Source: Haloterrigena turkmenica DSM 5511 (GTDB lineage: Archaea > Halobacteriota > Halobacteria > Halobacteriales > Natrialbaceae). Taken from it: a stretch of DNA of 64,000 nucleotides. The first letter of the stretch is position 1. The number at the start of each line of letters is the position of its first letter. The position numbers and the translations under genes are program-made. Location: assembly GCF_000025325.1 (NCBI RefSeq), contig NC_013744.1:248001-312000 (forward strand), written 5' to 3'. Positions 3,532 through 54,857 of the stretch are shown here, in pieces. Below the pieces are notes generated by a model that was not told the origin of the DNA, did not search any database, and saw only the letters and a list, made by a program, of their open reading frames with translations.

Positions 3532-4090
3532 AAACTTTCCACAAGAGACACCCTCTGTCTTGATCGATAGATGAGTCCACTGTACTTACCGTTTGTCGGG
3601 TAGTCACAGAGAGGGTATGGGAACGTTCTCTGACACCCTGTATTCCAGCGTATTACTGAACTCGAGTTCACTCATGAACTCGCCAGTAGTAGGTGACTGT
3701 CACTTGCGAGCTTCAGTTCAGTGGGATCCTCCACGAGCGACACAGCGCCGTCTGCGTCGGCCAACACGCGACAGGGGGACTGTCAGACCTAGCGACCAGC
3801 GAATCACCGAACTCGAGCAACAACAAGGGACTGTCACCACGTGCAGACCTCAACGGACACCAGAGACGCCCAAACGACTGAAAACAGCGGCTCTGGTGAA
3901 ACCCTCAACTGGTGACAAGCTTGACACCCTCAGCGATAAGTGCAGGGCAAGCAGTTACCGAAGCGGCTATCGATCTATCCGAACTATGCCAAAAACCGCC
4001 TGCTGAATATAGAGGGTGTATCCATCAATCGGTCCCACTTGACTGACTTCGAGTTCGAAATCGGAAACCAGATTTGCTACGACGAGCCCG
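3532..4090. other. Repeat-rich intergenic region
   Basis: No gene seen. It holds fragments of repeat B (gaacgttctctgacaccctg at about 3621-3640, ctcgagcaacaacaag at about 3813-3828) and, at 3945-4022, a copy of repeat A. It follows the hypothetical gene and faces the 3' end of the methyltransferase operon. Confidence 0.55.
3945..4022 (-). repeat. Interspersed repeat A, copy 1
   Basis: Read on the minus strand it begins ggatacaccctctatattca and ends about 75 bases later in ggtaactgcttgccct. Clear relatives are at 9519-9594 (same orientation) and 54104-54184 (plus strand). I count roughly 80 percent identity to the 9.5-kb copy by eye. The short end consensus GATACNCNCTCTGTATTCAG is found at several more intergenic places. 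Confidence 0.7.
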
Positions 4091-4705
4091 TCACTCGCGT
4101 CGGAGCCGGTACCAATGCTCGTTTGGCGTCAATAGCAATTCGACTGGTTTTGGGGCCGTGAACTGTGACGGCCCCATGTCGGTCACCGTCCAGCCCGGGA
4201 AGGCCGCCTCGATCTCATCTCGGGTCGCCCCTCGCGGCAGCGGTCCTCTCCGCTTGGGATCCCAAACGAGGAGAAGCACGGTAGCATCGGGCCCAGCGAC
4301 CGCATCGACCTCCCGCGCCATCGCCTCGCGCTGTGCTCGGTTCAATCCATGGAAGGTCCCGGTATCGAGCACTAACTGGTACTCGTCGTCGATTCCCGCT
4401 GTTTCGAGCTCCGTCACGTCTCCGAGGACGAGTTCCATCTCGACGTCGGCATCCTCGACCCGGTTACGAGCACGACGTAACACCCTTTCGACGGTGTCGA
4501 TACCCGTGACCTGCCAGCCTCGTTTCGCCAGTTCGATCCCCCAGATCCCGCTACCCGTTCCCACGTCGAGGGCTCGTCCGTAGGGTGGGTCGCGTCCACG
4601 TTCTTCGCGTTCGAACAGGTCGGTGATCGTCTCGACGAACTCCGGATCCTCGATAGCATCTTCCCACGGATGGAAGCCAACCTTGTACGCTAACTCGTAG
4701 TTCAT
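4091..4705 (-). CDS. SAM-dependent methyltransferase, class I
   Basis: 204-residue Rossmann-fold methyltransferase. SAM-binding motif I is ALDVGTGSGIWG (45-56), followed by the acidic loop VTGID (66-70), and VLGDVTEL fits motif II. The methyl acceptor is unknown; the size fits small-molecule enzymes of the Methyltransf_11/25 group. Its ATG overlaps the stop of the upstream alpha/beta-hydrolase gene as ATGA, so the two are translationally coupled. It is the last gene of the operon that starts with the methyltransferase at 5623-6447. Confidence 0.85.
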   Translation of the reverse strand: MNYELAYKVGFHPWEDAIEDPEFVETITDLFEREERGRDPPYGRALDVGTGSGIWGIELAKRGWQVTGIDTVERVLRRARNRVEDADVEMELVLGDVTELETAGIDDEYQLVLDTGTFHGLNRAQREAMAREVDAVAGPDATVLLLVWDPKRRGPLPRGATRDEIEAAFPGWTVTDMGPSQFTAPKPVELLLTPNEHWYRLRRE

Positions 4706-5610
4706 CGCTGCCCTCCATGTTCTCCATCATCGGGAGTCTCGAGCGCGGTGTAGAGTGTTCGCAGGAACACGTCAGGCCGTTCGAGTTTGGGGTCGTCGCC
4801 AGCGTCGTCGATCACGTTCAGCGGCCATCCGTAGCGGGCACTCGCATCTTCGGCGACTCCGAGCCGTATGGCGCGGTCGTCCCGCCCCCAGATCAGGGTC
4901 GTCGGAACCGGGATCCGTTCTAACGTCTCTGACGGGATCATCGGCATCCCCACCTCCTTCATGAGGGTGCGCATGGCAGTCTTCACGCTCGGGGTGCGTG
5001 AACGATCGAGGTGATAGGCCAGGAACGGCTCCCAGGTGTCACCCATCCCCTCGATCAGACCATCCCGATCGAACAGACACTGGCCGAGAAATCTGTGGTA
5101 CGCACGGTCGGTCGGTCGCACGAGGAACCGGAGCAACCCGAACGCGAACCTCGCGGACGGCCGGAACCGACCTAAGCCAAGCGCGTCCACGAGCACGAGT
5201 CGCTGGAGTCGATCACCCCGGTCGCTCGCGAAGCGAGCCGCGATGGCACCGCCGAGCAGATGCCCGATCAGCGTCGGTGGCGTCGGGCAGGTTTGCTCGA
5301 CCAGTTCGCCGAGCCACGTGACCACGGAGTCGGCGTCCAGCGTGCTGTTCGTTACCTCCGACGTGCCATGACCGGGCAGGTCGGGGACGATCACGCGATG
5401 GGTCGTCACCAGTTCCGGGATGACACGCATCCACCAGAACGCGGATTCGCCAGGGCCGTGCAGCAGGACGATCGGCGGACCATCACCGCCCTCCAGAACG
5501 GCGGTCGAAACACCAGCCAGTTGCAGCCGTCGCTCCGTGACAGGAAGTTCGGTCAGCAGCCGCTCCCGAGCGTCCGTCGTTTGTTGGTCCTGTATGGACA
5601 TTGATTTCAT
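4702..5610 (-). CDS. Alpha/beta-hydrolase fold protein lacking the nucleophile serine
   Basis: 302 residues with a complete alpha/beta-hydrolase layout: oxyanion-hole motif LLHGPGES (49-56), DLPGHGTS (77-84) and a strand followed by the nucleophile elbow TLIGHLLGG (113-121). In the family the elbow is GxSxG. Here it reads G-H-L-L-G, so the catalytic serine is replaced by Leu118, and the codon is plainly CTG. The protein may therefore be non-hydrolytic, use another residue, or act as a binding protein. It lies 12 bases after the methyltransferase at 5623-6447 and overlaps the next methyltransferase by four bases. The start could also be the Met four codons later, which would leave a wider gap. 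Confidence 0.8.
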   Translation of the reverse strand: MKSMSIQDQQTTDARERLLTELPVTERRLQLAGVSTAVLEGGDGPPIVLLHGPGESAFWWMRVIPELVTTHRVIVPDLPGHGTSEVTNSTLDADSVVTWLGELVEQTCPTPPTLIGHLLGGAIAARFASDRGDRLQRLVLVDALGLGRFRPSARFAFGLLRFLVRPTDRAYHRFLGQCLFDRDGLIEGMGDTWEPFLAYHLDRSRTPSVKTAMRTLMKEVGMPMIPSETLERIPVPTTLIWGRDDRAIRLGVAEDASARYGWPLNVIDDAGDDPKLERPDVFLRTLYTALETPDDGEHGGQR

Positions 5611-5622
5611 CGGAGTGTCAAC

Positions 5623-6447
5623 TCACTTCGTCCCGATACCGATGTTCACCGAGTTGTTCAACACGGCGGGGCCGCTCCCCCCGGACCGCTCGCGCAGCTT
5701 GTTATCCAGCGCCTTCTGGGCCGCGGCTTTCTGCTCTGCCGTCAGGTCGGCGACCATCTCCGCCCCGATCGGATTGCTGGCGGTCACCCAGTCCCACATC
5801 TGCGTGCCGGACTCGAACTCTAACCGGTGGTTCGCCGTCTCCACGCGGATGTCCGTCAATCCGGCGTCGGCCAGTTCCTCGCGCAGTATCTCGGGATCCG
5901 ATACCTGGAAAGGTAACGGCGGTGGATCCGTCGGGAGGCCCGTGAACTCGGGGACGGCCGTTTTCACCGCGCCGAGGAAGAATCCAAGGAACTCGACCTC
6001 CGAGGGTGGACCCATCGTAACGAGCACCACGCGGCCGCCGGGCTTGGTAACACGCGTCATCTCGCTCAGTCCCCGTGGCAGGTCGGGGAACAGCATGACG
6101 CCGAACTGTGATGCGGCGACGTCGAAGGTGTCGTCTTCGAGGTCGAGGGCCTGGCCGTCCATGACTCGGGCCCCCAGGTTCGTGAGCCCCTCCTCGCGGG
6201 CACGCGCTTCGAGTCGTTCGACCATGGCGGGAGAGATGTCTGTCGCCAGCACCTGCGCCCCCGCGCGAGCCGCCGGAATGCTCAATCCACCACTGCCGGC
6301 CGCAACGTCCAGCATCCGCATCCCCGATCGGAGCCTGGCCCGCTGGAGGGCTGCCTCCGCCAAAGCCATGTTCGATGGCGTTACGTACTCGTCATACCCC
6401 GGGGCGATCTCGGTCCATGCTTCCTGTATTGTTGCTTGTTCGGTCAT
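5623..6447 (-). CDS. SAM-dependent methyltransferase, UbiE-like
   Basis: 274 residues. Motif I MLDVAAGSGGLSIPAA (about 45-60), DISPAMVERL as the acidic loop, DGQALDLEDDTFDVAASQFG as motifs II/III, and a post-motif RVTKPGGRVVLVTMG. This is the general plan of the UbiE/COQ5 and Methyltransf_11 groups. The substrate is unknown; the pairing with hydrolase-fold genes points to a small organic molecule. It heads a three-gene operon. A perfect 7-bp inverted repeat lies 3 bases upstream of its start. The FilR1-type regulator gene 6646-7470 lies just upstream on the same strand. Confidence 0.88.
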   Translation of the reverse strand: MTEQATIQEAWTEIAPGYDEYVTPSNMALAEAALQRARLRSGMRMLDVAAGSGGLSIPAARAGAQVLATDISPAMVERLEARAREEGLTNLGARVMDGQALDLEDDTFDVAASQFGVMLFPDLPRGLSEMTRVTKPGGRVVLVTMGPPSEVEFLGFFLGAVKTAVPEFTGLPTDPPPLPFQVSDPEILREELADAGLTDIRVETANHRLEFESGTQMWDWVTASNPIGAEMVADLTAEQKAAAQKALDNKLRERSGGSGPAVLNNSVNIGIGTK

Positions 6448-6449
6448 GA

Positions 6450-6466
6450 TACCTCAGATTGAGGTA
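6450..6466. promoter_or_regulatory. Inverted repeat TACCTCA-gat-TGAGGTA before methyltransferase operon
   Basis: Perfect 7-bp arms with a 3-base spacer, immediately upstream of the ATG at 6447. The position fits an operator that blocks transcription or translation start. The adjacent FilR1-type regulator is the obvious candidate to bind it; that is inference. A related CTCA/TGAG arrangement occurs at 31005-31021 next to another regulator of the same family. Confidence 0.55.
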
Positions 6467-6645
6467 CGCCGGCAGACCACGTCTAAATGTCCGCTGAAAG
6501 ATTTCATCCCGTGAAGAGCGGCTTCGGTTCTGCGGTAGGGCGGAAATGGTCTGACACGGTGAATCGTCTTGAATGCCCGGTCCACACCGTGATATCCGGC
6601 AAATCGCTGGTCGTTAAACGCGCGCCCACCAGTCGCCGACGCGAC

Positions 6646-7470
6646 CTACGGGAGGAGGTCCGACGGGACCAGCGTCTCGAACGCCTCCGGCCCGACTGGT
6701 TCGGCCTCTCGGCGGACCCGCTCGAAGGTGGAGATGGCCCACTCGCGTGCCTCGGGTGCGTCCGTATCGATCACAGCTGTCAGCGCCCCGGTCTCGGCGT
6801 CGTGACAGCAGATGCCGGCGCGGTCGTCCACGATACCGAGCCCACACCGGTTCCCGTCGGGGAGGTCGTCGTGGACATACACGGTGCAGTTCTCACGGGC
6901 GGCGGCTTCCATGACTCGGTCGGGATTCCACGCGACGGTCCCCTCGAGGGCGGTCGGCGAGTACACGTACTCGAGTTCCATGCCGTCGAGGACAGCCTGG
7001 CAGACCGTCTCGTTGTTAACCGATTTGTAGACGATACTGTCGAACCCGCGCATTCGGCTCGTTCCTTCGATGAGCTGGGTAAGCCGTTCGACGGGTTCGT
7101 ACGGGTATTTCGGACCGGGATAGGAGACAACCGCGTCGGCGAAGAGGTCGGCGGAGAACCCCTCCATCTCCCGCGGGAGCCACTGCCAGACATCGCGTAG
7201 CTTGCGTTCGACCTCCATCGCGTCGCGGAGATCGAGGAATCGATCTGCCACGAACTCGCCGAGCCGTGTCAGTTGGTAGGTCGGGCCGTCCCGGACGATC
7301 CATCGACGATCTTCGAAGTCAGTGAGGATTCGACTCATGGTCGGTGAGGAGGCCCCCGTCGCGGCGCGAAGCTCCCTACCCTCGCGGGGTCCCTCGGTCA
7401 GGCCCTCTATGACACCGATGCGGTGACTCGACCGGGCGAGAAATTCGATTTCTTCGATGGCAGTATCCAT
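6646..7470 (-). CDS. Winged-helix regulator with FilR1-type sensor domain
   Basis: 274 residues. The N-terminal winged helix (about 8-75) includes GRELRAATGASSPTMSRIL as the helix-turn-helix. The rest resembles the FilR1/methanogenesis-regulatory domain: GFSADLFADAVVSYPGP (about 102-118), then EPVERLTQLI, and a CTVYVHDDLP...RCGLGIVDDRAGICC block. Such proteins are DNA-binding regulators thought to sense small molecules. Two further complete relatives (9776-10585, 30138-30977) and a fused C-terminal half (28453-28956) lie in this window. It is divergent from the hydrolase at 7622 and upstream of the methyltransferase operon, so both are candidate targets. Confidence 0.85.
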   Translation of the reverse strand: MDTAIEEIEFLARSSHRIGVIEGLTEGPREGRELRAATGASSPTMSRILTDFEDRRWIVRDGPTYQLTRLGEFVADRFLDLRDAMEVERKLRDVWQWLPREMEGFSADLFADAVVSYPGPKYPYEPVERLTQLIEGTSRMRGFDSIVYKSVNNETVCQAVLDGMELEYVYSPTALEGTVAWNPDRVMEAAARENCTVYVHDDLPDGNRCGLGIVDDRAGICCHDAETGALTAVIDTDAPEAREWAISTFERVRREAEPVGPEAFETLVPSDLLP

Positions 7471-7554
7471 GGTGTGTGTAGGTGTACCACAGTATAATGG
7501 GTATCGGTGCTCATGACCAGTTTAGTGAAGAATACGCATTCTCTATTCAGAGGC

Positions 7555-7602
7555 TCTATTCCCCGTATTTCGGTAGTTTGCGGGGTAGACTTATCGTTGA
7601 GT
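7555..7602 (+). promoter_or_regulatory. Promoter element, first hydrolase
   Basis: CTATTC, three bases, then GTATTTCGGTAGTTTGC, followed by a TATA-like GACTTATCG about 30 bases before the ATG at 7622. The same arrangement (CTATTC, three bases, GTATTTCTGTTGT) occurs before the second hydrolase, and both lie exactly 67 bases before the start codon. This conservation supports both the start choice and a shared regulator. Confidence 0.6.
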
Positions 7603-7621
7603 GCATCGAATGATCATCGCT

Positions 7622-8425
7622 ATGCCGTACGCCCAGTGTAACGGGGCCGACCTCTATTACGAAGACCGCGGCGAGGGCCAACCAATCGTGTTTCTCCACG
7701 GTGTGTTGCACAGTCTGCGGTTTTTCGAGCCACAGTTAGCTGGTCTCTCGGACGAGTACCGCGCGGTCGCCGTCGATTTCAGGGGGCACGGCCGGTCGGA
7801 GAAGACGGAACTGGGCCACACAGTCGCCCAATACGCCCGCGATATTCACACCTTCGTCGAACAACGAGACCTCGATGATGTCGTCCTCGTTGGATGGTCG
7901 TTGGGCGCGCTCGTCTCGTGGGAGTACGTGGATCAATTCGGCACCGAACGGATACGAGGACTGGTCGACGTCGACATGGAAGCATCTCGATTTCAGTGGG
8001 ATGACTACGAGCACGGACTCACCGACCTGGAAGGAATCAAGGACACGCTCGCGTTGGTCCAGGGAGACCGGACGAGCATCATCGAACGCATGACGGAGCA
8101 GGTCTTCAAGGATCCCAGCGCCGAGACGAAAACGTTACAGTTCGACGAGATCTCCCGGACGCCGGCCTCGATCGGGACCGTCATCCTGATCGATGCGGTC
8201 ACACGCGATTACCGACGCGTCCTCCCCGAGATAGATGTTCCCATGTTGGTGTGCGCCGGGGCAGAGGAAGAAACAACACGTGGGACCGTCGCGTCAGTGA
8301 GAAACGTCGTGGATTTCGTCCCAGACGCCCAGTTCGAACTGTTCGAAGACAGCGGCCACGGCCCGTGTTTCGAGGAACCCGAACGGTTCAATTGGGTCAT
8401 GAGCCGGTTCGTCGACTCGATTTGA
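7622..8425 (+). CDS. Alpha/beta hydrolase, copy 1 of a tandem pair
   Basis: 267 residues from the chosen ATG. Oxyanion-hole motif FLHG (24-27), DFRGHGRS (52-59), nucleophile elbow GWSLG with Ser93, and the C-terminal GHGPCFEEPERF carrying the catalytic His. This is the plan of haloperoxidase/esterase-like alpha/beta hydrolases; the substrate is unknown. Met codons also lie 12 and 21 bases upstream. I chose 7622 because the next gene begins the same way (MP..QCNGADLYYED) and because the upstream promoter motif sits at the same distance in both. It is divergent from the FilR1-type regulator. Confidence 0.87.
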   Translation: MPYAQCNGADLYYEDRGEGQPIVFLHGVLHSLRFFEPQLAGLSDEYRAVAVDFRGHGRSEKTELGHTVAQYARDIHTFVEQRDLDDVVLVGWSLGALVSWEYVDQFGTERIRGLVDVDMEASRFQWDDYEHGLTDLEGIKDTLALVQGDRTSIIERMTEQVFKDPSAETKTLQFDEISRTPASIGTVILIDAVTRDYRRVLPEIDVPMLVCAGAEEETTRGTVASVRNVVDFVPDAQFELFEDSGHGPCFEEPERFNWVMSRFVDSI

Positions 8426-8426
8426 A

Positions 8427-8499
8427 AGATACGCGCCCTGTATTCAGTTCCGTCAAGAAAACCCTCAGACTGCTGTAAGAAGCGGCGTGCTGAATACAG
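8427..8499. repeat. Interspersed repeat A relative with 10-bp inverted ends
   Basis: AGATACGCGCCCTGTATTCAG starts two bases after the stop codon of the first hydrolase. CTGTATTCAG (8438-8447) and CTGAATACAG (8490-8499) are perfect inverted repeats 42 bases apart, which resembles a very short MITE-like unit or a transcription-ending hairpin. Confidence 0.6.
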
Positions 8500-8504
8500 A
8501 AGTC

Positions 8505-8546
8505 CTATTCAGCGTATTTCTGTTGTCTTGCCCACTATGATTATCC
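8505..8546 (+). promoter_or_regulatory. Promoter element, second hydrolase
   Basis: CTATTCagcGTATTTCTGTTGT followed by a TATA-like GATTATCC, 67 bases before the ATG at 8572. It matches the element upstream of the first hydrolase in sequence and spacing, so promoter and gene were duplicated together. Confidence 0.6.
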
Positions 8547-8571
8547 CTTAGTACGGTGTATATTCAGCGTT

Positions 8572-9372
8572 ATGCCAGTCATCCAGTGCAACGGAGCCGA
8601 TCTCTATTACGAGGATCACGGCGCGGGCCAACCAATAGTCTTCCTCCACGGTGGGGGAGATGGTCTCAGGTACTTTGAACCGCAGTTGACCGGCCTCTCG
8701 AACGAGTACCGAACGATCGCGTTCGATTTCAGAGGCCACGGTCGGTCCGAGAAGACGGACTTGGGGCATACACTACCGCAGTACGCACAGGATTTACGTG
8801 CGTTTCTCGACCAGCTCAATCTCGATAACATCGTTCTCGTCGGCTGGTCGATGGGTGCGATAGTGTCGTGGGAGTACATCGATCAGTTCGGCACAGATCG
8901 ATTACTCGCATTGATCGATGTCGATATGGAACCATCGCCGCTACAACGGGAGGGTTACGACTACGGCAGTTACACCGTGGAAGGGCTCAGGGAAACCCTC
9001 GCTCGTATCCAGACGAATCCATTGGATCTCACCGATCAATCAATAGACGCACTGCTCAAAGATTCACCCTCCTGGGAACTGCGGACCATGATGTTTGACG
9101 AAGGATCTCGGACCCCGCCTCCAATTCAAGGGGCAATGCTTCTCGAATTGACGCGTGATTACCGAGACGTGCTTCCCGAAATTGATGTCCCGACGTTAGT
9201 TTGCGCCGGGGCGGACGAAACGTGGCGGAGCGTTGCATCCGTCGAGTACGTTGCGGAACTCATTCCGGATGCTCAATTTGAACGCTTCGAGGAAAGCGGA
9301 CACTGTATTACCGTCGAAGAACCAGAACGATTCAATCACATCGTGAGTGATTTCGTCGAATCATTCGGCTGA
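8572..9372 (+). CDS. Alpha/beta hydrolase, copy 2 of a tandem pair
   Basis: 266 residues, clearly paralogous to the preceding gene over its whole length (same QCNGADLYYED opening, FLHGGGDG, DFRGHGRS, elbow GWSMG with Ser93, SGHCITVEEPERF at the end). Divergence between the two is considerable in the lid region (about 125-190), which usually sets substrate choice, so the pair may act on different substrates. It is followed within five bases by another repeat-A-like sequence. The next regulator (9776-10585) is convergent. Confidence 0.88.
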   Translation: MPVIQCNGADLYYEDHGAGQPIVFLHGGGDGLRYFEPQLTGLSNEYRTIAFDFRGHGRSEKTDLGHTLPQYAQDLRAFLDQLNLDNIVLVGWSMGAIVSWEYIDQFGTDRLLALIDVDMEPSPLQREGYDYGSYTVEGLRETLARIQTNPLDLTDQSIDALLKDSPSWELRTMMFDEGSRTPPPIQGAMLLELTRDYRDVLPEIDVPTLVCAGADETWRSVASVEYVAELIPDAQFERFEESGHCITVEEPERFNHIVSDFVESFG

Positions 9373-9775
9373 ATTTATACCTTCTATTCAGTACGGCCCC
9401 GAATATCACTCAAATCTGTTAAACCGGCGGCAGTCAGTAAGCACATCTACTGAGCGGCCATTTCTGTCTCATCCTTGTGAAAGACACTGCGTTCTCTGAC
9501 ATAGTGGAGTGTTCAGTATAGGGCAAGCAGTTGCCAAAGTGGCTATCGATCTATCCGAAATCTACCAAAAGTCATCTGCTGAATATAGAGGAGGAGTTCA
9601 GCACGACGATCTCGTTTGTTTCACGCCCGCCCTACTGAACCAGCCGTTCTATAGATCTGCGAACTTAGTGCTGATGCTTCTACCATCTATCGGAGATGTT
9701 GACTGAGTCGTGCTGATAGACAGCGCGTATTCATTAACTGCGTCCGCTACCTAACGCCGTAGAGCGCACCACGTG
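9373..9775. other. Repeat-rich intergenic region
   Basis: Between convergent genes. 9376-9450 starts with ATACCTTCTATTCAGTACG and contains cagtcagtaagcac. It aligns with 11521-11600, which has the same start and ggtcagtaagcat at a similar distance. 9519-9594 is a clear copy of repeat A. No coding region is seen. Confidence 0.55.
9519..9594 (-). repeat. Interspersed repeat A, copy 2
   Basis: Shares agggcaagcagtt, ggctatcgatctatccgaa and tgctgaatatagag in order with copy 1 at 3945-4022. Confidence 0.7.
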
Positions 9776-10585
9776 TTAGGCCTCCGGCAACATCGTCGGG
9801 TTGAGAGGCTCAGCCTCATCACGGTAGTCCTCGTAGAGTGACTTCGCCCACGAGACAACAACTGGATCATCAGTTACCACCAACCCTTCAACTCCATTCT
9901 GATCGTCCTCGCTCAACCAGAATCCGACTGTTGTATCGATTATATGGAAACTAATTGGAACTTCTCCATCGTACAAAAGAACATCGCCTCTCTCTGCACG
10001 TGTCTGCCAGATTGGTATCTGTTTCGGCTCTTCGCCAAGAGTATCGAACCAACTGGCTTCGATCACGGATTCAGAATCTAACTGTCCATGCATCGACTGA
10101 TCGTGGATTAATTTCACAAACCGGCTGACGGCAAGTCGGACAAGCGACCGCTTCTTGTTCGCAGCACGGATCCACTCCGCTAAATAATCGAACGGCTCAA
10201 CGGGATTCGTCTCGGTCGGCGTTATAATGTCGGCATCACGGAAATGCCGTGGATCAAGTTCACGAGCAGGTGGCGGAAGAAATCGGATCATCTCTCCGAG
10301 ATGCCGGATACCCTTGACGGTCTGTAGGTAGTCGTGGAACTCGTTGGTCATGGTTTCTCCCCTGTCCGTGAGTTCGTATTGACTGCCCTCTGAGTCGATC
10401 CATCCCTGTGATTCCCCCTTGTTGAGGATGCGGGTAACGGTAGACCGTGAAGCTCCCGTCTGTTCTGCAAGGGCGCGACCCGTCGTCGACCCGTCGATGA
10501 GTGCTTCGAACACCCGCATGCTGTATGGCGAATTTACGAAGATTTGGACCTCTTCCAGCGCCTCATTCGTGTCGGATGTTGGCAT
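9776..10585 (-). CDS. Winged-helix regulator, FilR1-type family
   Basis: 269 residues. The winged helix at about 10-80 has GRALAEQTGASRSTVTRILN as helix-turn-helix and LTDRGE in the wing. The remainder aligns in outline with the other FilR1-type proteins here (PVEPFDYLAEWI against EPVERLTQLI; RGDVLLYDGEVPISFHIID; ALYEDYRDEAEPLNP-like end), although it has lost the Cys-rich GICC block. It is divergent from the Tat-exported DUF1330 protein at 10855. In this window these regulators tend to lie divergent from an enzyme gene, which suggests local control. Confidence 0.82.
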   Translation of the reverse strand: MPTSDTNEALEEVQIFVNSPYSMRVFEALIDGSTTGRALAEQTGASRSTVTRILNKGESQGWIDSEGSQYELTDRGETMTNEFHDYLQTVKGIRHLGEMIRFLPPPARELDPRHFRDADIITPTETNPVEPFDYLAEWIRAANKKRSLVRLAVSRFVKLIHDQSMHGQLDSESVIEASWFDTLGEEPKQIPIWQTRAERGDVLLYDGEVPISFHIIDTTVGFWLSEDDQNGVEGLVVTDDPVVVSWAKSLYEDYRDEAEPLNPTMLPEA

Positions 10586-11328: not shown

Positions 11329-11931
11329 GAAATTCCACTATTTTTCTCCGCGACAAATCGGATGCAACCCCCCAACGTGAAGCGGTAGAGAAATACTCGG
11401 AGGGACGTGAGAATTCTTTCAACTATATCATGTTCTATGTAGATCCATCTGTCTAATACGATATTCTTGCCCTGTATTGAGCGTTCGACCTTCTACCTTG
11501 GTTGCTCCTCACTCCGTGCCATATCCGCGCTCTGTATTCATCACGACTCTTCGAACAGATACTCTGATTGGCAGGAATCCCAGCGGTCAGTAAGCATCTC
11601 TGTATAACAGCTGTTTCAGACAACATCACGTCTGAAGAATAGGATTTCAACAGGGCCAAATCTGGTGTCTTCCTCGCGTGATCTTGAGTGGACTGTCCAT
11701 CTTGCGTGTTCCTGGCCGACTGTCCACCGTTCGCCAGCAGCGGCGGCCACGGTGCGGTGCTGGGCGTTCGCCGCGATCCTGTCCGTTCGGGCATCGATCG
11801 TCCGTCTGTTACCGCTGTCTTGCGACCAGACTCGAGAGTCCTTGGTGAAGTGGTATCGAAAGATACGGAGGGGGTGGTGATAACGAATTAACGTCAGAGG
11901 CACTTGACGCCCTCGTCGGGGGATTCAACCG
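11329..11931. other. Repeat and IS-end graveyard, no gene
   Basis: Contains repeat-A-type ends (11461-11481, cttgccctgtattgagcg; 11521-11540, atatccgcgctctgtattca), a solo IS end at 11641-11657 and a repeat-B block at 11688-11712. I see no reading frame worth calling. Confidence 0.55.
11641..11657 (-). mobile_element. Solo terminal repeat of an IS5-type element
   Basis: The reverse complement reads GGCCCTGTTGAAATCCT, one mismatch from the left end of the IS5-type element at 24879 (GGCTCTGTTGAAATCCT). No transposase lies beside it, so it is a leftover end. Confidence 0.5.
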
Positions 11932-12078
11932 TCACCGATCTCCCTCTACGGAATACTCACTCGTGTACTCCCAAGCGTCGAGGTCGTACCAGATCGTGGC
12001 TACGTGCGTTTTTGCGTCGTGCTCGTCGGGATCAACGCGCTCGCGAATCTCATCGAACGTCCTCAATCGGCGGGGCAT
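11932..12078 (-). CDS. Small hypothetical protein, 48 aa
   Basis: Starts MPRRLRTFDEIRERV and ends WEYTSEYSVEGDR. It is acidic in the second half like haloarchaeal proteins. A TATA-like tgtaaaaaag lies about 20-28 bases before the ATG. It follows the cupredoxin gene on the same strand with a gap of 109 bases and may have its own promoter. No family recognised. Confidence 0.45.
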   Translation of the reverse strand: MPRRLRTFDEIRERVDPDEHDAKTHVATIWYDLDAWEYTSEYSVEGDR

Positions 12079-28452: not shown

Positions 28453-28956
28453 TTAGGACGGCGCGAGGGATTCGAAGCCGGCGGGGTCTACCGGGGTCGC
28501 CTCTGCGCGCACCTGCTCGAAAACCGAGATGGCCTAATCACGGGCCTCCGGGGCGTCGGTGTCGATGACCGCCACGAGCGTCCCAGTCCCAACGTCGTGG
28601 CAACAGATACCGGCCCGTTCGTCCACGATGCCGAGGCCGCAGCGGTCGCCATCGGGGAGGTGGTTGTGGACGAGGACGGTCGCGTTCTCGCAGGAGGTGA
28701 CCTCCATGGTTCGGTCCGGGTTCCAGACGAACATCCCCTCCAGGACCTCGGGCGTGAACACGTACTCGAACGTCATTCCCTCGAGGACCGCACCGCAGGT
28801 CGTCTCGAGGTTGCTCGACTTGTAAACAATGTTGTCGAACCCGCGCAACGACGAGGTCGACGCGATGAGTTGACTGAGACGCTCGACGGGCTCGTAAGGG
28901 TAACCTGGTCCGGGGTAGGAGACCACCGCGTCGGCGAAGAGGTCGACGGAGAAGCC
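28453..28956 (-). pseudogene. FilR1-type regulator, C-terminal half, fused to FAD oxidase remnant
   Basis: From EGFSVDLFADAVVSYPGP onward this is the sensor half of a FilR1-type regulator, closely similar to 6646-7470 (EPVERLSQLI, RGFDNIVYKS, RCGLGIVDERAGICC). It is joined in frame to the FAD-oxidase remnant upstream at about 28956. A TAG at 28534-28536 replaces the expected Trp (TDAPEARD stop AISVFEQVRAEA), and the old frame continues to a TAA at 28453. The winged-helix half is missing. Confidence 0.82.
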
Positions 28957-29888
28957 CTCTCGTACCCACTCGATACATTCGTCGTCTTTCGACGGGGCTT
29001 CCCAGTGTGCACCGACGGTCACGATAAACTCGGTCTCCCGATGCGGATACGCGGTCGCGTCCGACGGAACGTCGTTGACCGCGCCTCCGACTTGGCGGAT
29101 GAGAACTTCTGACTGCGGGGTAGGGGCCTGTTCGCTGTACTCGACGATAGTGTCGATAGCCTCGTCGGTGAGCTCCGTGAAATTATGCGCCTTCCAGTAG
29201 TTCCGTTCGCCCTCACCGTACAGGTCGTCTAAGCGACTCTGGGCCTCCGTATAGTTGGTCGGCGCGACAGCGTCGGCGATGGGGTCACCGTACTCGCAGA
29301 GCGGTTCGAGCACGTTCTCGCCCTCTTCAGGGTCGCCAGCGTAGAACTGCACGACCAGGAGGACCAACGTTCCGTGCACGTCCTCCGGAAGAAACGGGAG
29401 CGGCGGCGCCGCCACGCTGTCCACCCAGACACAACACTCTCGCGGCGCGTCGTGTGCGAACTCACGGTAGTGCATGAGGACGTCGGGTGCGTCCTCGTAC
29501 GGGTAGACAGCCGGCCCGAAGAGCACCTCCGACCCGACCTCATGTAGGTCAAACACGAACGAGGTGACGATCCCAAAATTCCCACTTCCGCCGCGAATAG
29601 CCCAGAAGAGGTCCTCGTGTTCATCTTCACTCGCGGTTACTACCCCCCGTCCGCGGTGACGACGTCGACCGATCGCAGATTGTCGATTGCGAGGCCGTAT
29701 TTCCGGCTGAGCCAGCCGATCCCGCCTCCCAGCGTGAGGCCGGCGACACCAGTCGTTGAGACGACACCACCGGGCGTGGCGAGCCCGAACGGCTGCGTCT
29801 CGTGATCGAGGTCACCCAGCGTGGCGCCCGCTCCGACGCGTACTGTCTGTTCTGTCGGGTCGACTCGGACGTCGTCCATCTCGTCGAT
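28957..29888 (-). pseudogene. FAD-linked oxidase (berberine-bridge type) remnant
   Basis: The first frame reads [20 protein letters not shown], then [20 protein letters not shown] and [10 protein letters not shown] to about 29640. The second frame continues TASEDEHEDLFWAIRGGSGN and so on to DDECIEWVRE. The shift lies in a run of six G where one more base would restore the frame. It is a relative of the intact oxidase at 31086-32894. The FAD-binding N-terminus with RGGGHN is missing, and so is the C-terminal BBE segment, where the regulator half is attached. Confidence 0.82.
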
Positions 29889-29960
29889 CTAGGCTAAGAA
29901 CCTAGCTAGATATTAACAAGCGAGAGAGTAGTGCGAGGGAAACGAAGTCGATCCGCTGCA

Positions 29961-30047
29961 AGATACGCGCTGTGTATTCAGCAGACACTGGACGAACTAC
30001 CGCACCGTTGTCTAGGGGTACGTGCGAGATACAGAGGGTGTATGCAG
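29961..30047. repeat. Repeat-A-type ends
   Basis: AGATACGCGCTGTGTATTCAGC (29961-29982) and gagatacagagggtgtatgc (30026-30045, other direction) face each other about 45 bases apart. They lie downstream of the regulator gene at 30138-30977. Confidence 0.5.
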
Positions 30048-30137
30048 AAACGGAGATCAATTTCTAAAGAATCTCTTGACTGGCCGAAAGCGTGAGAGAG
30101 AGCACGTCGTTCGACCAAGCTGAGTACGTACCTCGGT

Positions 30138-53349: not shown

Positions 53350-54093
53350 GGCAGTGTCTAGTTAGGCCAGTTTGAGAAGCGAGCAGGTCGTAGAGCTAGT
53401 TTGGCCATGACACTCGCAGACCTGCTCAGCGAGTGCTACGCGGCGGAATTTGATGAATCTTGGGAGCGTGAGCGGACGGCGACGCCCGTCAGGGTGTTCG
53501 CCGTCCGCCTCCACGCGACCGGTTGTTCGCTCCGAGAGACACAATCGATTCTTCGCTTGATAGGCGTAGACCGCTCTCATCAAGCACTCTGGCACTGGGT
53601 ACATCGGCTAGCTGATAGCGTACCAGACCCGCCGACGGCGCAGCCGGCACGGGTCGCCATTGATGAAACCGCTGTCAAGATCAACGGCGACTGGTCTTGG
53701 GTGTACGCTGCAATAGACCTAGACTCACGACTAATTCTTGATGTCGCAGTGTTCGGACGGCGAGGCACCGATCCAGCCGCTGCGTTCCTGCATCGATTGA
53801 CCGAGAAACACAATCTCTCCGACGCTGTGTTTCTCGTCGATGGCTACGGCTATCTGACTGCCCTCTCTCGATTGGGGTTAAGCGGTCAACTCGACTACGT
53901 CGAGCGAAACCTGATCGAAAAGTGGTTTCAGACCTTCAAGATGCGAGTTGACCGCTTCCATAATTCATGGGTGGGCAGTCGAGCGAGCGTCAGAGAATGG
54001 CTTGAACAGTTCGTACACTATTATAACACACAACGACCGCACCAGTCACTCAACGGACAGACTCCCACCGAGGTGCTAAACTAGACAGTGCCG
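53349..54093 (+). mobile_element. IS6-family insertion sequence
   Basis: Terminal inverted repeats CGGCAGTGTCTAGTT (left, from 53349) and, on the other strand, CGGCACTGTCTAGTT (right end at 54093), one mismatch. One transposase gene fills it. The 8 bases on either side are not identical, so no target duplication is seen, which suggests recombination or age. The right end lies about 10 bases before a copy of repeat A. Confidence 0.85.
53401..54084 (+). CDS. IS6-family transposase
   Basis: 227 residues, intact. DDE-type catalytic residues in VAIDETAVKI (first Asp), FLVDGYGYL (second Asp) and NLIEKWFQTFKMR (Glu); HYYNTQRPHQSLNG is the family tail. An N-terminal helix-turn-helix (FAVRLHATGCSLRETQSIL) binds the ends. 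The length matches ISH15/ISH29-like members, so the element may still be active. A start two codons later is equally possible. Confidence 0.9.
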   Translation: MAMTLADLLSECYAAEFDESWERERTATPVRVFAVRLHATGCSLRETQSILRLIGVDRSHQALWHWVHRLADSVPDPPTAQPARVAIDETAVKINGDWSWVYAAIDLDSRLILDVAVFGRRGTDPAAAFLHRLTEKHNLSDAVFLVDGYGYLTALSRLGLSGQLDYVERNLIEKWFQTFKMRVDRFHNSWVGSRASVREWLEQFVHYYNTQRPHQSLNGQTPTEVLN

Positions 54094-54103
54094 ATGAATC
54101 CAT

Positions 54104-54184
54104 TCTCTGTATTCAGCACATCATTTCTGCAGTTATCGAGAGTTGGATAGCGACTCTGGTAACGCCTCCGCCTGTACTTACCGC
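54104..54184 (+). repeat. Interspersed repeat A, copy 3
   Basis: ctctgtattcagca, then ggatagcgactctggtaac and cctgtacttaccgctga match, in order, the minus strand of 3945-4022 (gatagccgcttcggtaact, ccctgcacttatcgctga). Confidence 0.65.
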
Positions 54185-54229: not shown

Positions 54230-54459
54230 GTGAAACCCACAGACAGCACCGACCCGTGGGACCCATACGAACAGTCAGACGACCAGCAAAAAGCAGGCAC
54301 TGAAGGGGCCTCGAGCGGGCCGCCGACGAAACCGGCCTCACGAGATCGAAACTCGTCGGCCGAGCGGTCGAGTACTACGTCGACGAAAATCCGGATCGAA
54401 TTCGGGGGTTCTACCCGGACGATTCGTTCGCTACGTTTGTCGAGGAGCTAATTGAATGA
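54230..54459 (+). pseudogene. CopG/RHH-like protein, frameshifted
   Basis: First frame from a GTG: MKPTDSTDPWDPYEQSDDQQ to about 54308; second frame: LERAADETGLTRSKLVGRAV, EYYVDENPDRIRGFYPDDS and FVEELIE with stop at 54457-54459. The two halves fit one small ribbon-helix-helix-type protein of the kind found before integrase genes, with an internal deletion and frame change. Its stop overlaps the ATG of the integrase fragment as ATGA. Confidence 0.6.
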
Positions 54460-54857
54460 GCCGGCCCAACCGCATCCCCGCGATCACCGACGAGTCGGAC
54501 GCCGAGAGGCTACTCCGACAGCTCCAGAGGGCGACGGAGACGATCCTCGAACCGACCGCGGCCGAAGAGGCGCTCGAGTTCTACCTCGAGGATAAGGCGC
54601 GCGAGTGCCGCAAGTCGACCGTCGATTCCCACCGGTCCCGGCTCGGGTTCTTCGTCGAGTGGTGCGAGTCGATCAACGCGGTGCAACCGGGGTTGTTCAA
54701 GAAAATCAAGTCCCCGACCATCCCCGACGAGAAGGTCGCCAGAGAGACGACGCTCCACGTGAGCCGAGGGAAGGAGATCGTCACGCACCTTGACCGGTTC
54801 GAATACGCATGGGTCGAGCACGTCGGCTGGCTCCTCCTGACCGAGACCAGCGTCTGA
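54456..54857 (+). pseudogene. Tyrosine integrase (XerC/D-type), N-terminal fragment with internal deletion
   Basis: 133 residues: ALEFYLEDKARECRKSTVDS and HRSRLGFFVEWC belong to the core-binding SAM-like domain, after which FKKIKSPTIPDEKVARETTL from about 60 residues further on is joined directly. It ends soon after HVGWLLLTETSV, before the catalytic Arg, His and Tyr. Non-functional remnant of an integrated element. Confidence 0.7.

Follow-up and report, generated by a model that had tools for sequence, protein, structure and literature searches.

Two alpha/beta hydrolase genes lie side by side in the 64,000-nt stretch of DNA analyzed here (the window; contig 2, positions 248001–312000), and the same short motif stands before both. 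Is this repeat a regulatory element kept through a local duplication, as the first-pass annotation had proposed, or does it mark something else? We searched the window and the whole genome (5,440,782 bases in 7 contigs). The pattern CTATTC-N3-GTATTTC-N-GT-N-GT matches twice in the window, at 7556..7577 and 8505..8526 on the plus strand. With the ATGs at 7622 and 8572 as start codons, paired through homology, the motif is indeed present before both genes, at 66 and 67 nt and not "exactly 67" twice as had been claimed. The motif tail, GTATTTCNGTNGT, has 4 copies in the 5.44-Mb genome, 2 of them before the window hydrolases, and the reversed control has 0; therefore, the motif is not due to chance. 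The first composite pattern tried gave 2 weak matches, both in the own genome.

We then aligned the two upstream regions with a 1-nt shift. They are identical at 17 of 22 positions over the motif and at 18 of 27 over a 27-bp site, compared with 11–14 of 55 (ungapped) just 5' of the conserved block; the interval between motif and ATG is identical at 25 of 44 positions and the start of the ORF at 48 of 60. Even similarity across the whole upstream region, which would have pointed to recent duplication rather than motif conservation, is thus not what is seen: similarity is uneven, with a single conserved block over site and motif. The motif is the inner edge of this longer block, and the first 10 nt of copy 2 fall within the site at 8488..8514. 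A conserved site does stand before both genes, as had been stated, although at copy 1 (7539..7565, +) it is degenerate, aligning with 8488–8514 and ending in the motif but scoring below 7 as a >> site. Our preferred reading is that the short repeated motif forms the border of a 27-base site found at the ends of small cassettes that seem to be exchangeable in many haloarchaea; this corrects the promoter-element reading of upstream repeats of this kind.

The site has the consensus TGCTGAATAYAGRGnGYGTATYnnnCA, is 27 bp long, and can be read as 11-5-11; many unrelated genes have it at their ends. Its inverted form, TGCTGAATA...TATTCAGCA, came to light upstream of hydrolase homologues from other haloarchaea. 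There are two types, T1 with the center CGCG and T2 with a GGTG-like center. The outer 14 nt, TGCTGAATAYAGRG, are largely alike in both, and the center and inner half distinguish them (GCGCGTATCnnTCA in T1, GGnTGTATTCAGCA in T2). Of 117 genomes sampled from the order, 72 have the exact core TGCTGAATAYAGRG, with 243 matches in sum and 2 for the reversed control. A matrix derived from 86 exact sites has sharp edges, with positions 0 to 26 conserved; on the outside about 40 nt are weakly conserved and on the inside little is. This matrix was built on exact core matches, the window's included, so its scores favor that core. The full 27-mer pattern matched 46 stretches among 84,980 species genomes and one stretch in a viral collection. 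Forty-five of the 46 carry haloarchaeal names (Haloferax, Halorubrum, Haloquadratum, Haladaptatus, Natronococcus, Halosimplex, Natrinema, and others), which, save for two that were looked up, we take to be of that class; the other is "uncultured archaeon A07HB70," placed in the taxonomy under Archaea and no finer.

Ten sites in the window score at least 16 (starting at 4001, 7526, 8423, 8488, 9577, 11457, 11517, 29957, 30023, and 54092), where Markov sequence gives an expectation of about 0.1 per 64 kb. A strong site (4001..4027, +; score 39.4) lies beyond a methyltransferase/hydrolase/FilR1 block at 4091–7470, and a weak one (7526..7552, −; 16.9) points left. Hydrolase 1 (7622..8425, +; Abhydrolase_1, 5.7e-21) is followed by a T1 site (8423..8449, −; 26.3) that starts exactly at its stop codon, TGA 8423–8425. 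Next come a 38-nt spacer (8450..8487) and the site before hydrolase 2 (8488..8514, +; 26.4), which occupies the T2 place with an atypical center, GTCC; with this second arm and this spacer, the junction at 8423–8514 is not strictly typed. Hydrolase 2 (8572..9372, +; Abhydrolase_1, 9.5e-27) has a degenerate closing site (9367..9393, −; 15) that overlaps its stop codon. We read both hydrolases as cargo. Strong sites also form the left edge (9577..9603, +; 33.4) and the right edge (11517..11543, −; 30.7) of a stretch with a FilR1 regulator and DUF1330, with an additional site (11457..11483; 18.4) near the right edge. Further along is a composite junction at 29957..30049, composed of a site at 29957–29983 (−), a 39-nt spacer, and a site at 30023–30049 (+). 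The last strong site (54092..54118, −; 31.8) lies 8 nt from the end of a DDE_Tnp_IS240 transposase ORF (53401–54084), with a tyrosine-recombinase fragment (54456–54854) 338 bp off its other side; it looks as if an insertion sequence, 53401–54084, had landed at the edge of the site.

The two hydrolases are 59% identical as proteins. Identity is 85/120 over residues 1–120, 26/75 over 121–195, and 47/72 over 196–267, and the lids are indeed the most divergent part, as the first-pass annotation had noted. Its tandem duplication, by contrast, is not what the tree indicates. Among 43 homologues (one pair of rows being identical), hydrolases 1 and 2 fall into separate clades with support of 100/98 and 100/99, each including homologues from other families, and on this placement we reject a local duplication. 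An opening or closing site accompanies 15 of the 43 rows, scattered over the tree; the other 28 have no detectable sites. Because the two genes sit in different well-supported clades and site-bearing genes are scattered, the sequences fit a separate arrival, in which hydrolases 1 and 2 would be separately acquired cassettes side by side. Nine hydrolase loci, among them that of window hydrolase 1 (8423), and one other locus have a closing site whose start coincides exactly with the stop codon. We rejected stop-codon overlap as a general rule for the site, since an offset of 0 is seen at 10 of 178 sites, nine of them in hydrolase loci; it is a trait of the hydrolase cassette.

Sites bracket genes in inverted orientation, and their spacing is nearly constant. 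An inverted partner was found for 68 of 210 sites, 55 of these at exactly 39 nt (pairs counted from both sides), compared with 2 of 209 for the same search on the opposite flank; 142 of the 210 have no partner at a score of 9 or more. The spacer measures 39 nt in 58 of 68 distinct junctions, 38 nt in five, and 40 nt in five. As to polarity, 56 of the 67 orientable junctions are strictly T1:T2, 11 are unclear, and none is clearly T1:T1 or T2:T2. We repeated the count on a second set, the 46 full-27-mer stretches, which hold 122 sites (46 found by the pattern itself) compared with 0 in shuffled sequence. They contain 15 <<..>> pairs less than 120 nt apart, 13 at 39 nt, one at 40, and one at 61, and of the 14 pairs at 36–42 nt, 10 are T1:T2 and none is of one kind. 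Three of the 46 stretches share identical 60-mers with earlier loci, and dropping them leaves the <<..>> counts unchanged. Direct-repeat sites at the same spacing of 39–40 nt apparently occur too (L128 1508–1666; window 9510/9577), with a weak partner at window 9510 (score 9.2).

Next, we defined a unit as site > ... < site over 250–2500 bp, which gave 99 units. Both ends could be typed in 80; 76 have one T1 and one T2, three are T2/T2, and one is T1/T1. Genes run from T2 to T1 in 33 of the 53 units whose longest ORF takes up at least 60% of the unit, a weak bias with both orientations occurring. Units also form arrays. In genome G092, locus L113 has four consecutive units of 0.5–0.8 kb each, and L227, L229, and L110 have runs of two to three. 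Units of less than 400 bp at L110 676–1474 encode tiny membrane-protein-like ORFs of 60–70 aa.

The two arms of a junction are no more alike than arms from shuffled-junction pairs (total z of 0.66 over 67 junctions). This lack of covariation speaks for recognition of the site as a double strand rather than by attC-type folding. A hairpin or RNA reading of the site was rejected on the same grounds, and Rfam at gathering scores gave no match in the window, L113, or L114.

We think it fairly probable that the 27-bp site is a double-stranded recognition site that delimits mobile haloarchaeal gene cassettes, with a recombinase acting in trans that would join like with like. A cassette would have the layout T2 site > gene(s) < T1 site, and neighboring cassettes would be joined as <T1 - 39 nt - T2>. 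The enzyme would pair T1 with T1 and T2 with T2. Like sites flank a cassette as direct repeats, so crossing over between them would excise one cassette together with one spacer, and the excised piece could then insert at another like site. Because like sites are direct repeats around the cassette and the T1 and T2 centers differ, such crossing would preserve order, and polarity and spacing would stay constant.

Homology between unit copies stops at the sites in several cases. In an all-versus-all comparison of loci, 100 of 2821 homology ends fall at the outer edge of a site and 0 do so in the opposite orientation, the 100 being mostly hydrolase loci and overlapping copies and hence not independent. 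When hydrolases are left out, 36 of the 693 distinct ends lie in or at sites, compared with 1.05% of random positions; the 693 include reciprocal pairs, and 657 of them fall away from sites. One case is a TrmB operon, 92% identical in two copies whose ends are at sites at both ends in both (L131 902–2752 = L146 536–2387). The copies come from G149 (L131) and G225 (L146) of genus g57, stand at different places in the two genomes, and have at most 2 nt in common outside the sites. Neither 39-nt spacer is common to them, which plain like-with-like excision does not predict; a spacer is common to other unit copies (L227/L230 and L110/L113). Copies of a 0.45-kb unit are 95% identical and on either side end no more than 14 nt from sites. 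Two copies of a membrane-protein gene that is probably a DUF389 family member are 91% identical, with sites at both ends in L130 and at one end in L122. A methyltransferase unit shared by Halosimplex salinum and G142 (96%) has its right end at a site, and its left is cut by the end of the fetched stretch. In a duplicated pair from the own genome (L170/L171, 96%), one end only coincides with a site.

One locus captures an exchange at a fixed place. The G225 TrmB locus and its counterpart in congener G084 have common flanks, 92% identical on the left and 96% on the right. On the left, homology continues across the outer flank and through the left site, breaking off at the inner edge of that site; on the right, it restarts where the right site of G225 has its outer edge. 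Between these flanks, G084 has a different gene, encoding 194 aa with no Pfam family. Thus, at one locus in two congeners the cassette differs and the left site is kept. The right end in G084 has no full site, only TGCTGAATACA joined to the common flank (L237 1508–1520), and this partial end could mark the crossover point inside the site. Left homology in G092, G149, and G207 reaches no further than the stop of the neighboring gene, ending there or just short of it; of the three, G207 alone yielded the right flank, which lies on a different contig. At a separate chorismate-mutase locus, sequence resembling the 3' end of the gene is found beyond the inserted genes in congeners (L163 1530–1567, L164 1451–1568, and L165 1682–1810), an arrangement that would fit the gene end being a target for insertion; the L164 and L165 copies also include a stretch from downstream of the chorismate-mutase gene.

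The same boundaries bear on a second reading, which takes the sites for terminal inverted repeats belonging to non-autonomous, transposon-like (MITE- or SMR-like) units that a transposase in trans cuts at their outer edges. Inverted sites at both unit ends, homology that stops at the outer edges and excludes the spacer, and single units in differing contexts with mostly intergenic placement all agree with it. It has a haloarchaeal precedent as well, in that Haloquadratum small mobile repeats have inverted ends, make no target duplication, and have no known mover, according to the available text of PMC3119063. At L108, the one case inspected, we saw no target-site duplication by eye, and the chorismate-mutase locus yielded no clean empty site. 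However, a transposon would not account for the spacing of 39 nt, for T1:T2 pairing both at junctions and inside units, or for the exchange in which the left site stayed in place. No transposase-bearing version was seen, and the copies have diverged while the pattern is kept across the class. We therefore regard this reading as unlikely.

A third reading, which takes the sites for short homologies or regulatory sequences at which ordinary homologous recombination alone shuffles the units, is quite improbable. Haloarchaea recombine freely, and homology ends cannot locate a crossover inside 27 bp, so they cannot place it within the site. However, imperfect homologies of 27 bp are short for such exchange, and the near-constant spacing and T1/T2 polarity would have no reason.

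The first-pass annotation had named the FilR1/HVO_A0261_N regulator at 6646..7470 (−) as the protein likely to act on the motif, and a second member lies at 9776..10585 (−). We read the first as neighboring cargo. The window has four FilR1-type ORFs, but they are seldom beside sites elsewhere. We found a FilR1-type ORF beside none of 43 other hydrolase stretches (two being the same place). Among site loci, such ORFs accompany 1 of 30 taken from different genomes and 3 of 46 taken from named records, many of all these stretches spanning just 1.5 kb per side. On these counts, we rejected the site as a FilR1 operator. At E ≤ 0.001, the FilR1 N-terminal family matches 116 of 117 genomes, 112 of them above its cut-off, and the same search also gives matches in 13 of 14 control genomes; in a coarse comparison, with counts reaching at least 41 per genome, genomes that lack an exact core site, such as G007, G005, and G034, have as many members as the rest. 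More broadly, the view that a transcription factor (FilR1 or another, e.g., HTH_10/Bat) uses the sites as operators and has the genes as its regulon, which draws on the opening site 64–112 nt before the ATG in those hydrolase homologues that have one, on the four FilR1-type ORFs, and on HTH_10 as the commonest Pfam family (7 of 108 nearby genes scanned), is very improbable given closing sites exactly at stop codons in ten loci, sites at the ends of unrelated genes, convergent placement that outnumbers divergent (24 versus 8 of 77 sites by a rough gene call), hydrolases elsewhere without a FilR1 neighbor, and whole units that move along with their sites. The site may still have a regulatory side role. 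An ORF at window 28534–29556, adjoining the junction at 29957–30049, has a FilR1 middle domain in its C-terminal third and no Pfam match in the remainder; it looks like a gene remnant or fusion.

Returning to the cassette reading, we asked what the cassettes carry and which enzyme could move them. Among 108 genes near sites, a chosen set, HTH_10 comes first, and other families include ferritin-like, cupin, methyltransferase, TrkA_C, SDR, MFS, SnoaL, and DUF389. None of the units was seen to carry its own recombinase or a transposase, and recombination at the sites would be the work of an enzyme in trans. Four recombinase/transposase queries, with no integron integrase model among them, were run on 14 stretches that contain arrays or lie near them (11 from G092, G050, G027, and G061) and found one tyrosine recombinase, ~6.4 kb from the nearest site. 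The tyrosine-recombinase family PF00589/PF02899 is found in 87 of 117 genomes. Among 75 sites sharing a contig with a listed recombinase, it lies within 300 bp of a site four times (238–264 bp), where random placement averages 0.1 such neighbors and never exceeds 2 in 2000 draws; the query was picked for adjoining a site, two of the four sites have one mismatch, the orientation of site and gene varies, and the counts cover only the sites and recombinases listed. This family is a weak candidate for the enzyme. A second family, of integrase-like fragments, has members 177 bp (L114) and 150 bp (L220) away from sites, and at L089 its stop-to-stop piece overlaps one. IS200 TnpA is beside a site at one locus only.

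By analogy, the system would work like integron cassettes or Acinetobacter dif modules, a likeness in working and not a claim of membership in either. Integron cassettes with attC, as described for archaeal integrons in the available text of PMC9668308, are alike in their tandem small accessory genes, one polar dyad-like junction per gene, and diverse cargo. However, attC acts as a folded single strand, and here the arms do not covary; integron genes have one orientation relative to the site, and here both occur. The 27-39-27 layout is also unlike that of integron cassettes, and we identified no integron integrase. The word stems "haloarchaea" and "halobacteri" are absent from the main text of that paper. 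The pdif modules of Acinetobacter, moved by XerC/XerD, are alike in having one to few genes between two short sites, in adaptive cargo such as transporters and UspA, and in occurring on plasmids and chromosomes (PMC6449649, available text). Here too, genes lie between two short inverted dyad sites, but unlike the 28-bp pdif site with its XerC and XerD arms, the present site is 27 bp, of two types, arranged in 39-nt junction pairs, haloarchaeal, and tied to no Xer protein. Archaeal Xer/dif has 28-bp chromosomal sites (PMC2958812), and Halobacterium, Haloarcula, and Halobacteriales are absent from the main text of that report; in the available text of a review on tyrosine recombinases of archaea (PMC8371274), the word cassette does not appear. 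Haloquadratum small mobile repeats and MITEs are alike in being haloarchaeal and having inverted ends, but the small mobile repeats, at ~80–110 bp, are too short for a transposase and commonly more than 95% alike within a type (PMC3119063, available text), whereas the units here enclose genes and have diverged. Searches of one open-access library turned up no published description of a haloarchaeal cassette system with a 27-bp site.

A wider proposal can be made only tentatively, as possible but somewhat less likely than its opposite: that this is a cassette-exchange system of the whole class Halobacteria, an archaeal counterpart of integrons with two kinds of double-stranded 27-bp site and a 27-39-27 junction, in which accessory genes would be gathered, rearranged, and passed around between plasmids and chromosomes through like-with-like recombination by a tyrosine recombinase acting in trans. 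Gene exchange is known to be heavy among haloarchaea, and a system of cassettes dedicated to it would, if true, be a concrete route. The sites offer a simple handle, as cassettes can be listed by pattern, their cargo catalogued, and their mobility tested. The window also holds short repeats at ~2670–2810, 3580–3950, and 11587–12060, which have many copies on contigs 2–4 and in congeners and are perhaps decayed mobile elements.
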